A stretch of 5,987 bases of DNA, from assembly GCA_021840785.1 (NCBI GenBank), contig JAKBXD010000119.1, positions 1 to 5,987 of the forward strand, written 5' to 3'. Below the pieces are notes generated by a model. That model did not search any database. It saw nothing but the letters and a program-made list of their open reading frames with translations, and was not told the origin of the DNA. Position numbers and translations under genes: made by a program. Below are positions 2-5,987 of this stretch, one piece after another. The stretch comes from Pseudomonadota bacterium. Its GTDB lineage: Bacteria; Pseudomonadota; Gammaproteobacteria; Acidithiobacillales; Acidithiobacillaceae. Each line of letters begins with the position of its first letter. The stretch's first letter is position 1.

Positions 2-1165
2 TTCGGTCTGCCTCCCAACAATCTGCCCGCGACGGATACGAGTCAGTTGTTAGCGCTGATTGTCGCGAAACAGGTCTTGGAGGATGCTCGGAAGGGTCAA
101 TTTCGTGAATTGGACCGGGACAAAATTAGCGTCATTTTGGGGGTCACGTCGGCGTCTGAATTGCTGAGTGAAATGGCCGGGCGATTGCAATCCCCGATCT
201 GGGAAAAGGCGCTTCGTGAATCGGGTGTGAGCCAGAGCCAGATTGAAGCGACACGACAACGGGTAAACGGCATGTACGTTCCCTGGCAGGAAAGTACGTT
301 TCCCGGGTTGTTGGGAAACGTGGTAGCCGGGCGGATTGCCAATCGGTTGAACCTGGGCGGTACGAATTGCGTCGTCGACGCAGCCTGTGCCAGTTCACTG
401 TCCGCTATCGCGATGAGTGTTCGGGAACTGCAGATTGGCAGTTCCGACTTGGCCATCACGGGTGGCGTGGACACCTTAAACGATATTTTGACCTACATGT
501 GTTTCAGCAAAACGCCGGCCTTGTCCCAGGCAGGAGACTGCCGACCTTTTTCCCGCAATGCGGACGGAACACTCCTCGGCGAAGGGATCGGTTTATTGGC
601 ATTGCGCCGCCTTTCAGATGCGGAGCGCGACGGGAACCGAATTTACGCGGTTCTCAAAGGCCTCGGAAGTTCCTCGGATGGATTTGCCAAGAGTGTGTAT
701 GCGCCGAACCCGGAGGGCCAGGCGAAGGCGCTCGCCCGTGCCTACGAGGAAGCCGGATACGATCCGAGGACGGTCGAATTGGTCGAAGCACACGGCACGG
801 GGACCAAGGCGGGAGATGCCGCCGAGATTCAAGGGTTGCGGAGTGTCTTCACTATGCAGCCCGATGAGTCTCCTTGGTGTGCCCTCGGTACCGTGAAGTC
901 CCAAGTGGGCCACACCAAGTCCGCCGCGGGCGCGGCCGGTCTGTTTAAGATCATCATGGCACTGCACCACAAAGTGCTGCCGCCAACCATCAAAGTGGAC
1001 ACGCCGAATCCCGCGCTAGACCTGGAGCACGGCCCGTTCTATTTGAACACGGCGGCGCGACCCTGGATTCGCAATCGGAAGCACCCGAGAAGGGCTTCAG
1101 TCAGCGCGTTCGGTTTTGGCGGCAGCAACTTCCATGTGACCGTCGAAGAATATCGTGGAAAGAAT
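2..1165 (+). other. Ketosynthase (KS) domain of the first synthase, N-terminus missing
   Basis: This domain performs the decarboxylative Claisen condensation that extends the chain. The nucleophile Cys codon is at 386-388, and the two His codons are at 791-793 and 911-913, giving a complete Cys-His-His set. The stretches DTLNDILTYMCFSKTPALS, DGTLLGEGIGLLALRRL and SSSDGFAKSVYAPNPEGQAKAL are, from family knowledge, typical of PUFA-synthase first KS domains rather than of modular polyketide synthases. The domain ends with FGFGGSNFHVTVEEY around 1108-1152. Confidence 0.93.
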
Positions 1166-3526
1166 CAGGCGTCGCGGTATTATACGCAGTCATCTCACTT
1201 GTTTGTTTGGTCGGCGGATTCGTCTGCGGACTTACGGGCTAACGTCGCGAACTGCCTTGCGCAACTGGGAGACCGCGAGTCCGATGTCGCGTTGATTGCT
1301 TGCGCCCGCCAGTTGCAGTCGAATTTCAATCACGCTTTATCCGCGAAATTGGCCGTAGTTGCTGAGTCTTATGGCGATTTGGAAGAGAAGCTCCAGACGG
1401 CGCTTGGTGCGCTGGACGAGTCCGTATCGTCCTGGTCGTCGCCCAAAGGAATTTACTATGGATGCGATCAGCATCCGGGCAAAATTGCTTTTCTTTTTCC
1501 GGGGCAAGGAAGCCAATTCGTGAACATGGGTCAAGAGGTTACGATGACGTTTGCTCAGGCGCAGGCGGTTTGGGATGGTCTGGGTTCCCGCGAATTCGAT
1601 GGGACTGACTTGCACCGTGTAGTCTATCCGGTTCCTGTATTCACTGATGATGAGCGGGACGCCCAGAACCGCCGGTTGGTGATGACCGAATGGGCGCAAC
1701 CGGCCATCGGTGTCACGTCTCTGGCCAATCTATCGTTGCTTCACAGTTTAGGTGTCCAGGCGGACTGCATGGCGGGTCACAGTTTGGGGGAACTGACGGC
1801 ACTCTCGGCCGCCGGCGCTTTCGATGGAGACACCCTGCTAACCCTGGCGCGTAAGCGCGGCGAATTGATGGCGGCCGGGTCGCACATCGCCGGAGCGATG
1901 ACAGCAGTGTTTGGCAACAAAGACACAGTGAAACAGTGGATAGGCGAGTTGGACCTGTCGCTGGTGGTGGCAAACCACAATAGTCCTCAGCAGCACGTCG
2001 TATCCGGTGTTGTGTCCGATTTGGAGCGGTTGGAGGAGAAGCTGCAAATTAACGGCATCCAGTTCCAGCGGCTCTGCGTGGCGACCGCGTTTCATTCGCC
2101 GCTGGTGGCGGCAGCAACTCCAGCTTTCCTGAACACGCTTGAGGATACCGAGATCACCGTGCCGAACATCCCGGTTTACGCGAACGTCACAGGGCAAGTA
2201 TATCCTGATTCGGTGCCTGACCTTCGCCAGTTGCTGGCGAACCAGATTCAAAGCCCTGTGTTGTTTGAACAAGTGATTCAGGCGATGGTCGAAGACGGGG
2301 TGCGCACCTTCATCGAAGTTGGACCCGGTGCAACGCTGACCGGACTCGTGAACCAATCGTATCGCGGAGAAGCCGTGACGACCGTGTGTCTTGATCGCAA
2401 GGGGCACAACGGTGTGACCACCCTATGGCATGCCTTGGCTCGATTGGTGGTCACGGGAGTGACACTGGATTTCGACAGACTGTGGGCGCATTATGAGCGC
2501 CCCGATCCACCCGCGAAGCCGAAACCGACGGCCGTCTATATTAATGGCACGAATTACGGGCGGCCTTACCCTTCCGTTACACCCGCTGGTGACAAGACTA
2601 CGGCAACGCGGCAGGAACAAGCGCCCAGGCAAGGATCCACCCGGATCACGAAGGGTTCGGCAGGAGCCACAGATTCGCACAGACAAATGGAGGGGAACAG
2701 ACAGATGAGTGATCGGCAGTCTCTGGCGATGTCGAGGAGAACGGGATCGACCCGTACAAACGCGCCTTCGGCCGGATCCTACGAGGTGCTGCACAGCCAG
2801 GTCACGCAGGCCCATTTAGCTTTCCAGCAAGCGTTGCTTGCTGGCCATACCGCTTATTTGCAGGCGGCGGAGAACACGTTTCTGACCATGCAAGGGATGG
2901 CTCCCAAGCCGTTGGCTGAGACGCCCATGCCCGCGTCAGCACCCGCCATTTGGAGCATCGAGCCCGGAGATGCGGCGGAGTCCGAGGGGGTGGTGGCGTG
3001 GAGTGATGACCCTTCCGATGGGGCTTTCGATGATCAGGCGTCGACTTGGCAGGAGGATGGGGACGATTGGTTCACGGACCAGAAAAGCCTATCCGGCCCC
3101 GTCTATGGGAATGCGAATCGGTTGGCGGGTGCTGGAACGAGCCGCGTTGAGCCATCGTCACGGCCGGATGCAGACGCGGTGCCGTTCAGGCCCGTCGAAT
3201 CGGAACCCGCGGCAACACGACAACCGTCTGGGACTGTAACCGCAACACCGGTGGCTCCGTCGACGGCGGGATCATGGGAGGACCTGTTGTTGCGCGTGGT
3301 GGCCGAGAAGACCGGCTATCCCGTCGAAATGCTTGAAATGGACATGGCTATGGAAGCGGATCTAGGGATTGATTCCATTAAACGGGTCGAAATTATGTCT
3401 GCCATGCAGGACCAGATTGCTGGTGATATGGAGGTACAGCCCCAGGAAATGGCACTCCTGCAAACCCTGGGAGAAGTGGTTGATTATCTGAAAGAGAGCG
3501 TAAAAAAAAAGCACGAAGTGACCTAA
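2..3526 (+). CDS. PfaA-like type I polyketide/fatty acid synthase, KS-AT-ACP (5' partial)
   Basis: This multidomain synthase makes acyl chains from malonyl units on its own ACP. The frame is open to the left edge, and codon 1 here is 2-4. The TTG at 47 lies inside conserved KS sequence (PPNNLPATDTSQLLALIVAKQ), so the true start is upstream, probably by several dozen residues. KS covers about residues 1-390, with Cys129 in DAACASSL, His264 in EAHGTGT and His304 in VGHTKSAAG. AT covers about 490-800, with FPGQGSQ, Ser594 in GHSLGE and His698 in TAFHSP; the phenylalanine before the His fits malonyl-CoA. A conserved post-AT motif, INGTNYGRPYP, follows, then about 230 residues of low-complexity linker. 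The single ACP is near 1090-1165, with Ser1125 in LGIDSIKRVEI, a signature of Pfa/enediyne-type ACPs. Family PfaA proteins usually carry tandem ACPs and a KR on the same chain; here the frame stops just after the ACP (VKKKHEVT). The KR follows in another frame. The class is certain; the product is unknown. Confidence 0.95.
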   Translation, partial: FGLPPNNLPATDTSQLLALIVAKQVLEDARKGQFRELDRDKISVILGVTSASELLSEMAGRLQSPIWEKALRESGVSQSQIEATRQRVNGMYVPWQESTFPGLLGNVVAGRIANRLNLGGTNCVVDAACASSLSAIAMSVRELQIGSSDLAITGGVDTLNDILTYMCFSKTPALSQAGDCRPFSRNADGTLLGEGIGLLALRRLSDAERDGNRIYAVLKGLGSSSDGFAKSVYAPNPEGQAKALARAYEEAGYDPRTVELVEAHGTGTKAGDAAEIQGLRSVFTMQPDESPWCALGTVKSQVGHTKSAAGAAGLFKIIMALHHKVLPPTIKVDTPNPALDLEHGPFYLNTAARPWIRNRKHPRRASVSAFGFGGSNFHVTVEEYRGKNQASRYYTQSSHLFVWSADSSADLRANVANCLAQLGDRESDVALIACARQLQSNFNHALSAKLAVVAESYGDLEEKLQTALGALDESVSSWSSPKGIYYGCDQHPGKIAFLFPGQGSQFVNMGQEVTMTFAQAQAVWDGLGSREFDGTDLHRVVYPVPVFTDDERDAQNRRLVMTEWAQPAIGVTSLANLSLLHSLGVQADCMAGHSLGELTALSAAGAFDGDTLLTLARKRGELMAAGSHIAGAMTAVFGNKDTVKQWIGELDLSLVVANHNSPQQHVVSGVVSDLERLEEKLQINGIQFQRLCVATAFHSPLVAAATPAFLNTLEDTEITVPNIPVYANVTGQVYPDSVPDLRQLLANQIQSPVLFEQVIQAMVEDGVRTFIEVGPGATLTGLVNQSYRGEAVTTVCLDRKGHNGVTTLWHALARLVVTGVTLDFDRLWAHYERPDPPAKPKPTAVYINGTNYGRPYPSVTPAGDKTTATRQEQAPRQGSTRITKGSAGATDSHRQMEGNRQMSDRQSLAMSRRTGSTRTNAPSAGSYEVLHSQVTQAHLAFQQALLAGHTAYLQAAENTFLTMQGMAPKPLAETPMPASAPAIWSIEPGDAAESEGVVAWSDDPSDGAFDDQASTWQEDGDDWFTDQKSLSGPVYGNANRLAGAGTSRVEPSSRPDADAVPFRPVESEPAATRQPSGTVTATPVAPSTAGSWEDLLLRVVAEKTGYPVEMLEMDMAMEADLGIDSIKRVEIMSAMQDQIAGDMEVQPQEMALLQTLGEVVDYLKESVKKKHEVT
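1475..2480 (+). other. Malonyl-type acyltransferase (AT) domain
   Basis: The domain moves a malonyl group from CoA to the ACP. FPGQGSQ supplies the oxyanion glutamine, the catalytic Ser codon is at 1781-1783 (GHSLGE), and the catalytic His codon is at 2093-2095. AFHSP in place of the YASH-type motif of methylmalonyl-specific enzymes suggests malonyl-CoA; that specificity is an inference from known AT motifs. GPGATLTGLVN near 2321-2354 closes the domain. The conserved INGTNYGRPYP element follows at roughly 2543-2575. Confidence 0.92.
2689..2707 (+). promoter_or_regulatory. Possible internal ribosome binding site and in-frame ATG
   Basis: GGAGGGG at 2689-2695 stands nine bases before ATG 2705-2707, which is in frame with the synthase and lies in the disordered linker between AT and ACP. 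Use of this start would give a 273-residue protein consisting of the helical segment, linker and ACP. Sequence and spacing are textbook quality, but activity is unproven and G-rich codons can produce such a motif by chance. Confidence 0.35.
2780..2890 (+). other. Predicted helical segment in the AT-ACP linker
   Basis: Within an otherwise Pro/Ser/Gly/Asp-rich linker, about 37 residues (YEVLHSQVTQAHLAFQQALL and on through AYLQAAENTFLTM) are rich in Ala, Leu and Gln with few helix breakers. Many Pfa/Hgl-like synthases carry a comparable amphipathic helix of the type FxxTQxxxMxxYL between AT and ACP. Its role is not established; docking or dimer contacts are possible. Confidence 0.55.
3270..3500 (+). 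other. Acyl carrier protein (ACP) domain, single copy
   Basis: This is the carrier for the growing chain. The phosphopantetheine attachment Ser codon is at 3374-3376 in LGIDSIKRVEI. The preceding VVAEKTGYPVEMLEMDMAME and the following helix ending in LGEVVDYLKES match the complete four-helix ACP of Pfa-type synthases. Only one copy is present, whereas marine PUFA synthases usually have several in tandem. A phosphopantetheinyl transferase must activate it; none is in the window. Confidence 0.93.
3502..3511 (+). promoter_or_regulatory. Candidate -1 frameshift (slippery) site, A9 run with A AAA AAG
   Basis: Nine A residues occupy 3502-3510, followed by G. In the ACP reading frame the codons are GTA AAA AAA AAG, so 3505-3511 is a correctly phased A AAA AAG heptamer, the slippery sequence of E. 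coli dnaX. A -1 shift continues at 3511 in the frame of the downstream KR. That frame has no stop between 3484 and its end at 5053. The result would be a KS-AT-ACP-KR chain of about 1684 residues plus the missing N-terminus. A weak purine-rich GAGAG sits upstream at 3494-3498. A homopolymer miscount in the sequence would give the same picture. Confidence 0.5.
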
Positions 3527-3562
3527 GACCATTGGCCCCTCCGCTTCATCGGTACGTCGTGC
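3511..3562 (+). promoter_or_regulatory. Imperfect stem-loop at the gene 1/gene 2 junction
   Basis: GCACGA (3511-3516) pairs with TCGTGC (3557-3562). The pairing continues after one A·G mismatch with GT/AC (3518-3519 with 3554-3555). After a bulged G at 3520 it continues with ACC/GGT (3521-3523 with 3551-3553). That makes 11 Watson-Crick pairs around a 27-base loop holding the stop codon of gene 1 and the TTG of gene 2. It might stimulate frameshifting or affect re-initiation. It starts directly at the slippery heptamer, closer than the usual 5-9 base spacer, so function is uncertain. Confidence 0.35.
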
Positions 3563-5055
3563 AATGTTCCCCGTCCGAGGCTACGGGACCATCTATCTTG
3601 GAGACGGTTGATCCCCAGATCCCTATCGTGATTGCGACTCATGACGATGGCGTGGGCGCGGGCCTGGCGGAAATGCTGCGCGACGTGGGATTTTCCGCCA
3701 GGGTTGTCCATGCCGAAGACAAGGTTGACGATCCGGCTCGTGGGGTATGTTCGGGACTGATTTATCTCGGCGGGATGCGTCCCGTATCGAGTATCGATGA
3801 TGCGATGGCTCTCAACCGTGAGGCGTTCGCGTGGGTGAAGGCAGTCGGACCGGAATTATCGCAAAACGGTGGCATCCTGGTGACCGTTCAGGACACAGGT
3901 GGTCAGTTTGGACTCTCGGGTGGTGATGCGATACGAGCATGGAGCGGTGGGCTGCCGGGATTGGTCAAGACTGCGGGGCTTGAGTGGCCGACCGTGGCGG
4001 TAAAGGCTATCGACATCATGGGTGATGGTGAGGAGCCACGTTCGATCGCAAGTCTTATTTTCGGCGAACTATGGAACGGAGGGCCTGACGTGGAAGTGGG
4101 CTTTGCTAAGGACCGAATCCGACGCACGGTGACGGGGAAACTCGCTTCCCAAAAGACGGATCGAGTCAATGATCTGTCGGAAGGGGCGGTCATTGTCGTA
4201 TCGGGAGGAGCGGGTGGTGTGACGGCCGAGGTGGTGCGAGCCCTTGCCTGCTACGCCAAGCCGCGGCTCGTGCTGCTGGGCCGGACCCCCCTTAGAGAAG
4301 TGCCCGAGGCGTGCCAAGGTCTCCGGACGGATGCGGACCTCAAGCGCGCACTGCTCCGGGAGTTGAAGCAGCAGGGGGAGAATCCCTCGCCGAGGCATCT
4401 CACGGCAATGGCCCGTTCGATCCAGAGGACGCGCGAGATCACGGGCCTGTTGGCCGAACTCAAAGATGTTGGGGTGCAAGCGCGTTACATCTCGGTCGAT
4501 GTGCGGGATGAAGGGGCGTTGGCTGAAGTTCTGAACGAGGTGGGGAACGAGTGGGGACCCATTGAAGGCGTCGTGCACGGAGCGGGCGTCCTAGCCGACC
4601 GAGCCATTGTTGAGAAAACCATGGATCAGTTCGACCGGGTGTTTGGGACCAAAGTGCTGGGGCTAAGGGCTCTTCTGGCGGCCACCAAGGATCATCCGTT
4701 GCGCTTTCTGTGCCTCTTCTCCTCCATCGCAGCCAGGAGCGGGAATGTCGGTCAGTGTGACTATGCCATGGCGAATGAGGTGCTAAACAAAGTGGCTTGG
4801 AGTGAGAAATTGCGCAGGGGAACCGGTTGCAACGTGAAGGCGATTGGGTGGGGACCTTGGGATGGCGGCATGGTGACGCCCGATTTAAAAGCCTATTTTG
4901 AGGCGCGGGGCGTGCCGCTTCTGTCTGTCGAAGAGGGCCGGACGTTTTTCCTTGACGAGGTTTTTGGCGTCCGGGAGGGCGTCGAGATTGTCGCTACGGC
5001 CACGGATTTAACCCCTTTTCATTCCCTGGATTCGTCTCAGGTCAGGAGTGTGTAG
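3532..5055 (+). CDS. Ketoreductase (KR) of the synthase, SDR family; possibly the C-terminal part of the upstream protein
   Basis: The protein reduces the ACP-bound beta-ketoacyl group to the beta-hydroxyacyl form with NADPH. Counting TTG 3532 as residue 1, residues about 25-200 form the degenerate, structural SDR half found in polyketide synthase KRs. The catalytic half follows, with the nucleotide-binding SGGAGGV at 224-230, HGAGVLAD, Lys374, Ser398 and Tyr411 (13 apart, in FSSIAARSGNVGQCDYAMAN) and Asn415, so the active site is complete. The ending IGWGPWDGGMVTP is typical of PfaA-type KRs. The TTG is five bases after the upstream stop and has no clear ribosome binding site; GTG 3559 and TTG 3598 are no better. 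The N-terminal PPLHRYVVQCSPSEATG looks like an inter-domain linker, and the frame is open back to 3484. It is therefore either translated by coupling or reached by a -1 shift. Family assignment is certain; the start is not. Confidence 0.9.
   Translation: MAPPLHRYVVQCSPSEATGPSILETVDPQIPIVIATHDDGVGAGLAEMLRDVGFSARVVHAEDKVDDPARGVCSGLIYLGGMRPVSSIDDAMALNREAFAWVKAVGPELSQNGGILVTVQDTGGQFGLSGGDAIRAWSGGLPGLVKTAGLEWPTVAVKAIDIMGDGEEPRSIASLIFGELWNGGPDVEVGFAKDRIRRTVTGKLASQKTDRVNDLSEGAVIVVSGGAGGVTAEVVRALACYAKPRLVLLGRTPLREVPEACQGLRTDADLKRALLRELKQQGENPSPRHLTAMARSIQRTREITGLLAELKDVGVQARYISVDVRDEGALAEVLNEVGNEWGPIEGVVHGAGVLADRAIVEKTMDQFDRVFGTKVLGLRALLAATKDHPLRFLCLFSSIAARSGNVGQCDYAMANEVLNKVAWSEKLRRGTGCNVKAIGWGPWDGGMVTPDLKAYFEARGVPLLSVEEGRTFFLDEVFGVREGVEIVATATDLTPFHSLDSSQVRSV
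5044..5048 (+). promoter_or_regulatory. Ribosome binding site of the second KS gene
   Basis: AGGAG lies inside the last codons of the KR gene, 11 bases before ATG 5060. The spacing is slightly long but acceptable. It supports the ATG as the start, in contrast with the KR gene, which has no such signal. The stop of KR (5053-5055) falls between the site and the start, as expected for translationally coupled operon genes. Confidence 0.65.
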
Positions 5056-5059
5056 AGAC

Positions 5060-5987
5060 ATGAACTTCCCCCGTATCGCCATCATCGGCCAAGGCTTGGT
5101 TCTGCCCGGTGCTTTTACTGTCGGGGAACTATGGGATCATCTCAGGGCCCAGCGGGATGTGCTGTCGGAAGCCTCGGAGAAAGATTGGCGCTTGTCGGCG
5201 AAGGCTATCCGTCAGTGGTCGGGCGTTGACGGCTGGTCCACGCGAGGCGGGTATGTCCGTGGTTTCGATGACGTGTTTCGGGCGGATGGATTTTTGGTGC
5301 CAGCGGACGAGATCCTGCGCTTTGACAGGCTCGTGCAATGGCTGTTGTACTCGGCCCGATCCGCCCTCGAAGAGGCGGGGATGGATCCACGGGTGAAGTC
5401 CGACCGGGCCGGCGTAATCGTCGGCAATCTGTCGCTGCCCTCTCGCCGTTTCGCGCGTTTTGCCGAGGCGGTATGGCTCGACTCATTGGAGCGGCAACTG
5501 GGTGTGACGGGGCTAAGGGAGGCCGCTGTCGGCCCATCGCCCGACCCGCGCAATCGTTTCATGTCTGGTTTGCCCGCGAAGGTTGTCGCCGACGCGCTTG
5601 GCCTGGGCGCGGGCGCGCTGGCACTGGATGCGGCGTGTGCGTCGTCTCTTTATGCCATCAAGCTGGCATGCGACTGGCTGCATCTAGGTCGCGCGGACGT
5701 CATGTTGGCCGGCGGCGTCAATGCTGCTGACCCGCTACTATTGCACAGTGGATTTCGCGCGCTCACAGCGAGCAGCCCGAGTGGTCAAAGTCGGCCATTT
5801 CACAGGCGTGCGGACGGCCTCGTGGTGTCCGAAGGGGCCGGCATGGTCGTGCTCAAACGCCTGGATGACGCGGTGCGTGCCGGCGATCCCATTCTTGGGG
5901 TGATTCGCGGCGTGGGGTTATCGAACGATGCGGGGAAGCGGAGTTTTCTAGTGCCCTCGTCGGATGGCCAGGTAGCCGCCATGCAGA
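5060..5987 (+). CDS. Second ketosynthase protein, PfaC/Hgl-like (3' partial)
   Basis: Only the first 309 codons are present. The protein opens directly with a KS fold, NFPRIAIIGQGLVLPGAFTV, and needs no upstream extension. The active-site Cys193 lies in LDAACASSLYAIKLA. GGYVRGFDDVF, FLVPADEILRFDRLVQWLLYSARSALEEAG, SPSGQSRPF and RADGLVVSEGAGMVVLKRL are, from family knowledge, features of the second KS in Pfa/Hgl-type secondary lipid clusters. The two catalytic His residues and any following chain-length factor, AT or dehydratase domains lie beyond the edge, so activity and full domain order cannot be judged. Four bases separate it from the KR gene, so it belongs to the same operon and probably supplies a second condensing unit. 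Confidence 0.92.
   Translation, partial: MNFPRIAIIGQGLVLPGAFTVGELWDHLRAQRDVLSEASEKDWRLSAKAIRQWSGVDGWSTRGGYVRGFDDVFRADGFLVPADEILRFDRLVQWLLYSARSALEEAGMDPRVKSDRAGVIVGNLSLPSRRFARFAEAVWLDSLERQLGVTGLREAAVGPSPDPRNRFMSGLPAKVVADALGLGAGALALDAACASSLYAIKLACDWLHLGRADVMLAGGVNAADPLLLHSGFRALTASSPSGQSRPFHRRADGLVVSEGAGMVVLKRLDDAVRAGDPILGVIRGVGLSNDAGKRSFLVPSSDGQVAAMQ

Follow-up and report, generated by a model that had tools for sequence, protein, structure and literature searches.

The boundary between the acyl carrier protein (ACP) and ketoreductase (KR) domains of a PfaA-like synthase is probably a site of programmed −1 frameshifting, a reading based on sequence comparison to which we assign a probability of about 0.85. 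The synthase is encoded on a stretch of 5,987 nucleotides (hereafter the window; positions 1 to 5,987 of contig JAKBXD010000119.1, assembly GCA_021840785.1) from a member of the Acidithiobacillaceae (Gammaproteobacteria), in which the ketosynthase (KS), acyltransferase (AT), and ACP domains share one open reading frame (ORF1), KR lies in the −1 frame, and a slippery heptamer A AAA AAG stands in phase shortly before the ACP frame ends. Ribosomes that keep their frame would terminate 15 nt past the heptamer and yield KS-AT-ACP, while those that slip back by one base there would enter the KR frame and yield KS-AT-ACP-KR. Family-wide, such a site would consist of one of several X XXY YYZ heptamers with the stop codon mostly at or next to it, accompanied by a Shine-Dalgarno (SD)-like element upstream and/or a hairpin downstream, while in the window and two relatives (loci L043 and L059) the long A-run itself may act via the ribosome, RNA polymerase, or both. 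From this arrangement we infer slippage in cells, at a rate that would give KR-less and KR-bearing products in a fixed ratio, and a use for both of them.

Phased heptamers at the ACP-KR junction

The heptamer of the window is part of a run of nine adenines (A9), the only A- or T-run of at least six there, and overlaps another phased site, A AAA AAA at 3502–3508. The KR frame is −1 relative to the ACP frame and is preceded by a TGA at 3481–3483 (Table 1). The initial annotation of the window had described a correctly phased A AAA AAG within A9, a KR frame in −1 that is open from 3484, an ACP frame ending 15 bases past the heptamer and a KR start limited to a TTG without a clear ribosome binding site, all of which was borne out; its description of the first KR residues as linker-like was not confirmed, homology to fused relatives being seen only downstream of the TTG, from about PPLHRYVV (3538) onwards. 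As a control for chance, same-sized stretches elsewhere in ORF1 were inspected, and 14 of 1136 held a phased heptamer; the single other phased heptamer of ORF1 (G GGA AAC at 313–319, in the KS part) is probably a chance occurrence.

Relatives were taken from the best 80 of 581 KR relatives in genome contigs, from whole-genome searches, and from 20 added regions picked mostly for short open frames, and identical junctions were removed before classing. Among 126 junctions (window included), 101 were fused and 25 carried KR in the −1 frame, a ratio that is no estimate of prevalence because of the best-80 selection and the hand-picked short-frame regions. Three loci with KR in the +1 frame (L018, L044, and L146) and six without a readable ACP stand outside the 126, and L159 and L160–L166 are likewise outside the junction counts. 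Subtracting L036 (N-gap) and L149–L153 from the 25 gives 19 comparable −1 splits, window included; L044 (Cohnella), with the same A AAA AAG site, is counted as a twentieth case only in the stimulator listing and the tree.

A phased X XXY YYZ heptamer (Y = A or T), searched for within 20 codons before the stop or at the equivalent place in fused loci, was present at 19/19 comparable −1 splits vs. 6/101 fused loci. Fisher's test gives p = 3e−17 with kinship ignored, the rows not being independent, and eight origins at the heptamer rate of the fused loci would have a probability of about 1.6e−10. The remainder of the same ORFs contained 30 heptamers in 17,218 codon positions, and by phase the counts were 23/296 in phase and 4/277 and 5/277 in the other phases. 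The heptamer hypothesis arose from inspecting the first set of loci; 13 −1 splits were found after it, eight with a heptamer and five, all of one clade, without.

The motifs are varied: A AAA AAG in the window, L007, L009, L044, L093, L094, L148, and L155; A AAA AAC in L033 and L043; A AAA AAA in L059; G GGA AAA in L032; G GGA AAG in L037 and L158; G GGA AAC in L118; C CCT TTG in L013, L021, and L053; C CCT TTC in L147; and C CCA AAA in L122. The stop codon ends 3 nt past the heptamer in 9 of the 19 and 6 nt past it in another 5, the 15 nt of the window lying on the long side of the range. Runs of nine or ten adenines occur in the window and L043 (A9) and in L059 and L018 (A10), and a run of about nine or more is absent from the other heptamer members; of the two features whose conservation the initial annotation had raised, the split frame (with its phased −1 heptamer) is kept among relatives and the A-run itself is not. 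In five Paenibacillaceae the stretch AAAAAAGTAG is invariant, and the variation downstream of it tracks the third codon position in the −1 frame (0.79 vs. 0.36 and 0.28). The earlier interpretation of the junction, a programmed −1 frameshift joining ACP and KR, is supported by this survey.

Stimulatory elements and anatomy of the window

Stimulators are common, though not obligatory, at bacterial −1 sites, and those of Escherichia coli dnaX are an SD-like element upstream and a hairpin downstream. With thresholds of ≤ −6.5 kcal/mol for upstream anti-SD pairing and z < −2 for downstream folding, pairing was detected at 13/19 sites vs. 14/101 places in fused loci (p = 1.4e−6) and at 0–16% when seven shifted positions were used (p = 3e−8), and downstream structure at 7/19 sites vs. 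7/101 fused places. The strongest hairpins by z were those of L155 (−6.2), L148 (−4.6), L021 (−4.5), and L053 (−4.3). The main stem starts 4–8 nt past the heptamer in L013, L021, L032, L033, L053, L118, L147, L148, and L155, and about 30 nt past it in L122. When the hairpins of L013, L021, and L053 were aligned, 2 of 13 pairs were changed on both sides and several were broken, so that covariation offers weak evidence. In a grouping made after seeing the data, 16 of the 17 sites outside runs of at least nine adenines (L044 included) pass one threshold or the other, the remaining one, L147, missing both (z −1.7; SD −5.8), and the three sites with nine or ten adenines, those of the window, L043, and L059, pass neither.

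Table 1 Features of the PfaA-like synthase and its ACP-KR junction in the window
Feature	Position	Strand	Remarks
Zero-frame ORF1, KS-AT-ACP of the PfaA-like synthase	2..3526	+	5′ end open in the window
ACP domain, PF00550	3284..3490	+	Residues 1095–1163; sole ACP match in ORF1
−1 frame with KR extension	3484..5055	+	Pfam KR domain at 4354–4863
Overlap in which ACP and KR frames are both open	3484..3526	+	Shift must occur here
Weak SD-like stretch AAAGAGAG	3491..3498	+	−4.9 kcal/mol, under the threshold used; possibly meaningless
A9 run	3502..3510	+	Candidate RNA polymerase slippage site too
Phased slippery heptamer A AAA AAG	3505..3511	+	ACP frame GTA AAA AAA AAG CAC
Stop TAA, end of the KR-less product	3524..3526	+	Last base 15 nt past the heptamer
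TTG, first ATG/GTG/TTG of the KR frame	3532..3534	+	Anti-SD pairing weak (−3.6 kcal/mol); competing start site

The whole zero-frame protein (P0001; 1261 aa) is encoded on a 45,353-base contig. Against the NCBIfam PfaA profile TIGR02813, the 5′-cut ORF1 scored 931 bits (profile 80–949) and the KR ORF 272 bits (profile 1858–2254); the cut-off of 1010 bits is set for one protein, and the domains of the window are spread over two frames, across which the order KS-AT-ACP-KR is present. A single PF00550 stretch was matched in the window synthase and tandem ACP repeats are absent from it, and it is for this reason labelled PfaA-like rather than PfaA. A further ketoacyl synthase begins at 5060 on the + strand, and Rfam at gathering thresholds gave no match in the window.

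Alternative explanations for the split synthase

In the members with long A-runs, the window included, RNA polymerase may slip on the run, so that a share of the transcripts would carry ACP and KR in frame. We regard this as possible but doubtful, and it would be a variant of programmed frameshifting confined to these loci rather than one that holds across the family. Nine adenines is the length reported in Thermus thermophilus dnaX (PMC3711429), the window, L043, and L059 have no stimulators passing the thresholds, and because the window lacks a clear stimulator, polymerase slippage may share or replace the role of the ribosome there. An Elusimicrobia metagenome-assembled genome (L018:4969–4993) carries A10 with KR in the +1/−2 frame; −1 ribosomal slippage would not serve this frame, whereas polymerase slippage, or else an assembly error, could account for it. 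However, polymerase slippage leaves the members with G GGA AAR/C, C CCT TTG/C, and C CCA AAA unexplained, and the A AAA AAG inside A9 is phased for the ribosome. A nine-A site of a magnesium chelatase gene gave 40% shifting in E. coli, which also counts against polymerase slippage, with the reservation that this one assay may be unable to tell the two routes apart (PMC3711429).

That ACP and KR are two adjacent genes, with KR started independently or coupled to the stop of the ACP frame, is improbable as a general explanation. The literature on polyunsaturated fatty acid (PUFA) synthases treats split pfaA as separate genes (PMC3098273, PMC4882568), and candidate starts are present in some loci: a GTG overlapping the stop in L037 (SD −11.0), a TTG overlapping it in L043 (−3.3), an ATG at +78 after the stop in L007 and L009 (SD −6.9 and −5.7), and a GTG at +99 in L118 (SD −9.3). 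The ATG of L007 and L009, however, is located past the start of KR homology at +30, L158 (in the same small tree group as L037) keeps the heptamer and SD with no start overlapping the stop, and in L021, L053, and L059 the KR frame lacks any ATG, GTG, or TTG close to the junction; nor would two genes predict a phased heptamer in 19/19 splits. A start overlapping the stop was also considered as a general cause of the −1 offset and was rejected, the GTG of L037 and the TTG of L043 being the only such cases among ATG, GTG, and TTG. The spacing from the ACP serine to the KR block was 474–516 nt in the 19 split loci and 433–772 nt (median 499) in 95 fused loci, a small difference (p = 0.019). Two genes may be what is seen in L149–L153, from the Myxococcota search, in which there is a GC-rich inverted repeat downstream of the ACP stop, with KR homology starting 261–390 nt later; KR is probably a separate gene there.

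It is very unlikely that the split reflects a sequencing error or a decaying gene, with a fused gene broken by a wrong homopolymer count or by a mutation. In favour of such an origin, homopolymers are prone to error, fused junctions outnumber split ones (101/126), and L044 has an additional break in KR. Against it, the split is seen again in isolates (L007, L009, L032, and L043), in a contig of 8.67 Mb (L093), and where there is no homopolymer, with the phased heptamer present in every one of the 19 comparable splits, and KK follows the ACP in 25/38 of the window-relative proteins that end soon after it (unfused) vs. 0/65 fused ones. The initial annotation had linked an error or a one-strain mutation to homologues that all form one frame without an A-run; 101 homologues are indeed fused, and because the split and the phased heptamer are shared by 19 further loci (L044 and the other 18 comparable splits), neither is the explanation.

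Several observations weigh against programmed −1 frameshifting. In the window, downstream structure is not better than in shuffles (z about 0, 40–150 nt) and the SD-like element misses the threshold (−4.9 kcal/mol), and in E. coli unstimulated V VVA AAG motifs gave about 0.3% shifting (PMC4066793). In the same source A AAA AAC and G GGA AAC are rated as low-efficiency motifs in E. coli, and C CCT TTG, present at three loci here, falls outside the list of efficient motifs in its accessible part, the best motifs with stimulators being C CCA AAG, G GGA AAG, and A AAA AAG (PMC4066793). Among the relatives, the five −1 splits of the L149–L153 clade have no heptamer (0/5), the stop is overlapped by a GTG with a strong SD in L037 and by a TTG in L043, and the +1 arrangements of L018 and L146 do not fit. 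The z distributions differ weakly (p = 0.048 vs. fused loci and 0.039 vs. shifted positions), the hairpin of L013 is no better than shuffles (z −0.4), and all p values overstate the significance, the rows being related. The extension to Aureispira-type synthases is weakened by the fused proteins of that set, of which 10/31 likewise carry KK at this place, vs. 82/85 of the unfused ones (20/239 proteins were skipped in the KK tail counts).

Other frame arrangements were noted alongside. KR of L146 (2552–2885) lies in the +1 frame with no slippery heptamer, and conserved ACP-frame tails were seen in this locus (RRGLQPA) and in P0099 and P0104 (RRGLPPA). In Cohnella faecalis (L044:4980–5429) a second frame break within KR leaves two overlapping KR pieces, and the locus was classed as +1 because of this break. 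At the AT-ACP boundary, 87 loci were checked and only L031, L079 (N-gap), and L145 deviated, none of them carrying a heptamer in the 60 nt that end the AT frame; in L145 (2333–2396, minus-strand orientation) the AT frame enters the ACP core, stops there, and has 64 nt in common with the ACP-KR frame, again without a heptamer. No relative was found in viral contigs, and the plasmid search returned one record at E ≤ 1e−60, from Embleya.

Evolution and comparison with known systems

In a quickly built KR tree with 129 rows, 20 of them labelled as frameshift, this label requires 12 changes, of which at least 8 are forced by starred branches, while shuffled labels need 18.9 on average; 40 of its 126 inner branches are weak, and L149–L153 form one clade on it. 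Split loci with a heptamer come from five phyla, Bacillota, Actinomycetota, Verrucomicrobiota, Bacteroidota, and Myxococcota (window not counted). The best reading of this distribution is that the frameshift state has arisen repeatedly at the ACP-KR boundary, as far as can be judged from sequences. We lean slightly towards a broader proposal, in which programmed −1 frameshifting would have appeared or reappeared on many occasions, by way of various heptamers and stimulators, in PfaA-like megasynthases of at least five phyla. The Aureispira-group synthases of arachidonic acid may belong here as well, with KR as the frameshift extension, and the ratio of KR-less to KR-bearing chains could serve as an intrinsic means of regulating beta-keto reduction or the stoichiometry of the complex.

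The unfused relatives of the window end in tails such as EKKNLVTE (P0003), VKKNELTP (P0012), and VKKN (P0025), and KK tails known from the protein alone are leads to further candidate sites. In Aureispira and relatives (P0107, P0121–P0237), PfaA terminates directly behind the ACPs in an almost invariant KK(K) tail, and the fused relatives with KK (10/31) look as if the run had changed length. Matches to P0107 were found in 6 of 198 Bacteroidia genomes: G011 is split, three have one long frame (2463, 2195, and 2472 aa), G1827 is in two contig pieces, and G1952 runs to the contig end; a search of seven genomes gave no additional one. The Aureispira marina cluster, in which the KR region is described as separate from pfaA, yields arachidonic acid in E. 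coli (PMC4882568), and pfa clusters of types D and H have a split pfaA (PMC3098273).

The initial annotation knew of no described recoding in the PfaA-like family, and our search of open-licence literature (supplementary tables excluded) agrees with it, returning no report for PUFA or polyketide synthases, although an unremarked case may exist; the accessible parts of PMC5009743, PMC4066793, PMC3098273, PMC4882568, PMC5067506, PMC545597, and PMC3711429 report none. If programmed frameshifting is real here, recoding would set the share of chains that bear a reducing domain in a widespread family of lipid and polyketide megasynthases, a layer of control that we did not find described for these enzymes in the literature searched. 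Annotations of KS-AT-ACP and KR as two genes would then be incomplete, heterologous expression as two independent genes could give the wrong stoichiometry, and a boundary at which frameshift signals of different kinds arose repeatedly would amount to a natural experiment on the gain and loss of frameshift sites.

Among comparable known systems are the type D and H pfa clusters and those of Aureispira marina and Psychroflexus torquis, where KS-AT-ACP and KR are on separate ORFs with the same boundary; in the accessible parts of the sources these are described as separate genes with no mention of a frameshift, and they carry tandem ACPs vs. one in the window (PMC3098273, PMC4882568). Transposases of the IS1 and IS3 families share with the PfaA-like junctions overlapping −1 ORFs and an X XXY YYZ motif (PMC4066793), but belong to mobile elements and not to a biosynthetic megasynthase. 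The magnesium chelatase cluster of frameshift genes resembles the PfaA-like family in having two ORFs in some species and a fused one in others, with −1 shifting at A-runs tested in E. coli (PMC3711429); it is a different enzyme, and the sites tested are A-runs, whereas the PfaA-like family has several types of heptamer. Thermus thermophilus dnaX and the two-ORF dnaX cluster have, as in the window, a run of nine or ten adenines between overlapping frames, and the nine adenines of Thermus dnaX act by transcriptional realignment (PMC3711429); only the long-A members are similar, and most of the family uses other heptamers with SD-like elements or hairpins. E. coli dnaX shares with the window the phased A AAA AAG and yields two products with a common N-terminal part, as predicted for the window, and its types of stimulator are also seen in several of the relatives, though not clearly in the window. 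The outcome would differ, since the dnaX shift leads to the shorter product (PMC3711429), while a shift in the PfaA-like synthases would lead to the longer one and add a catalytic domain.

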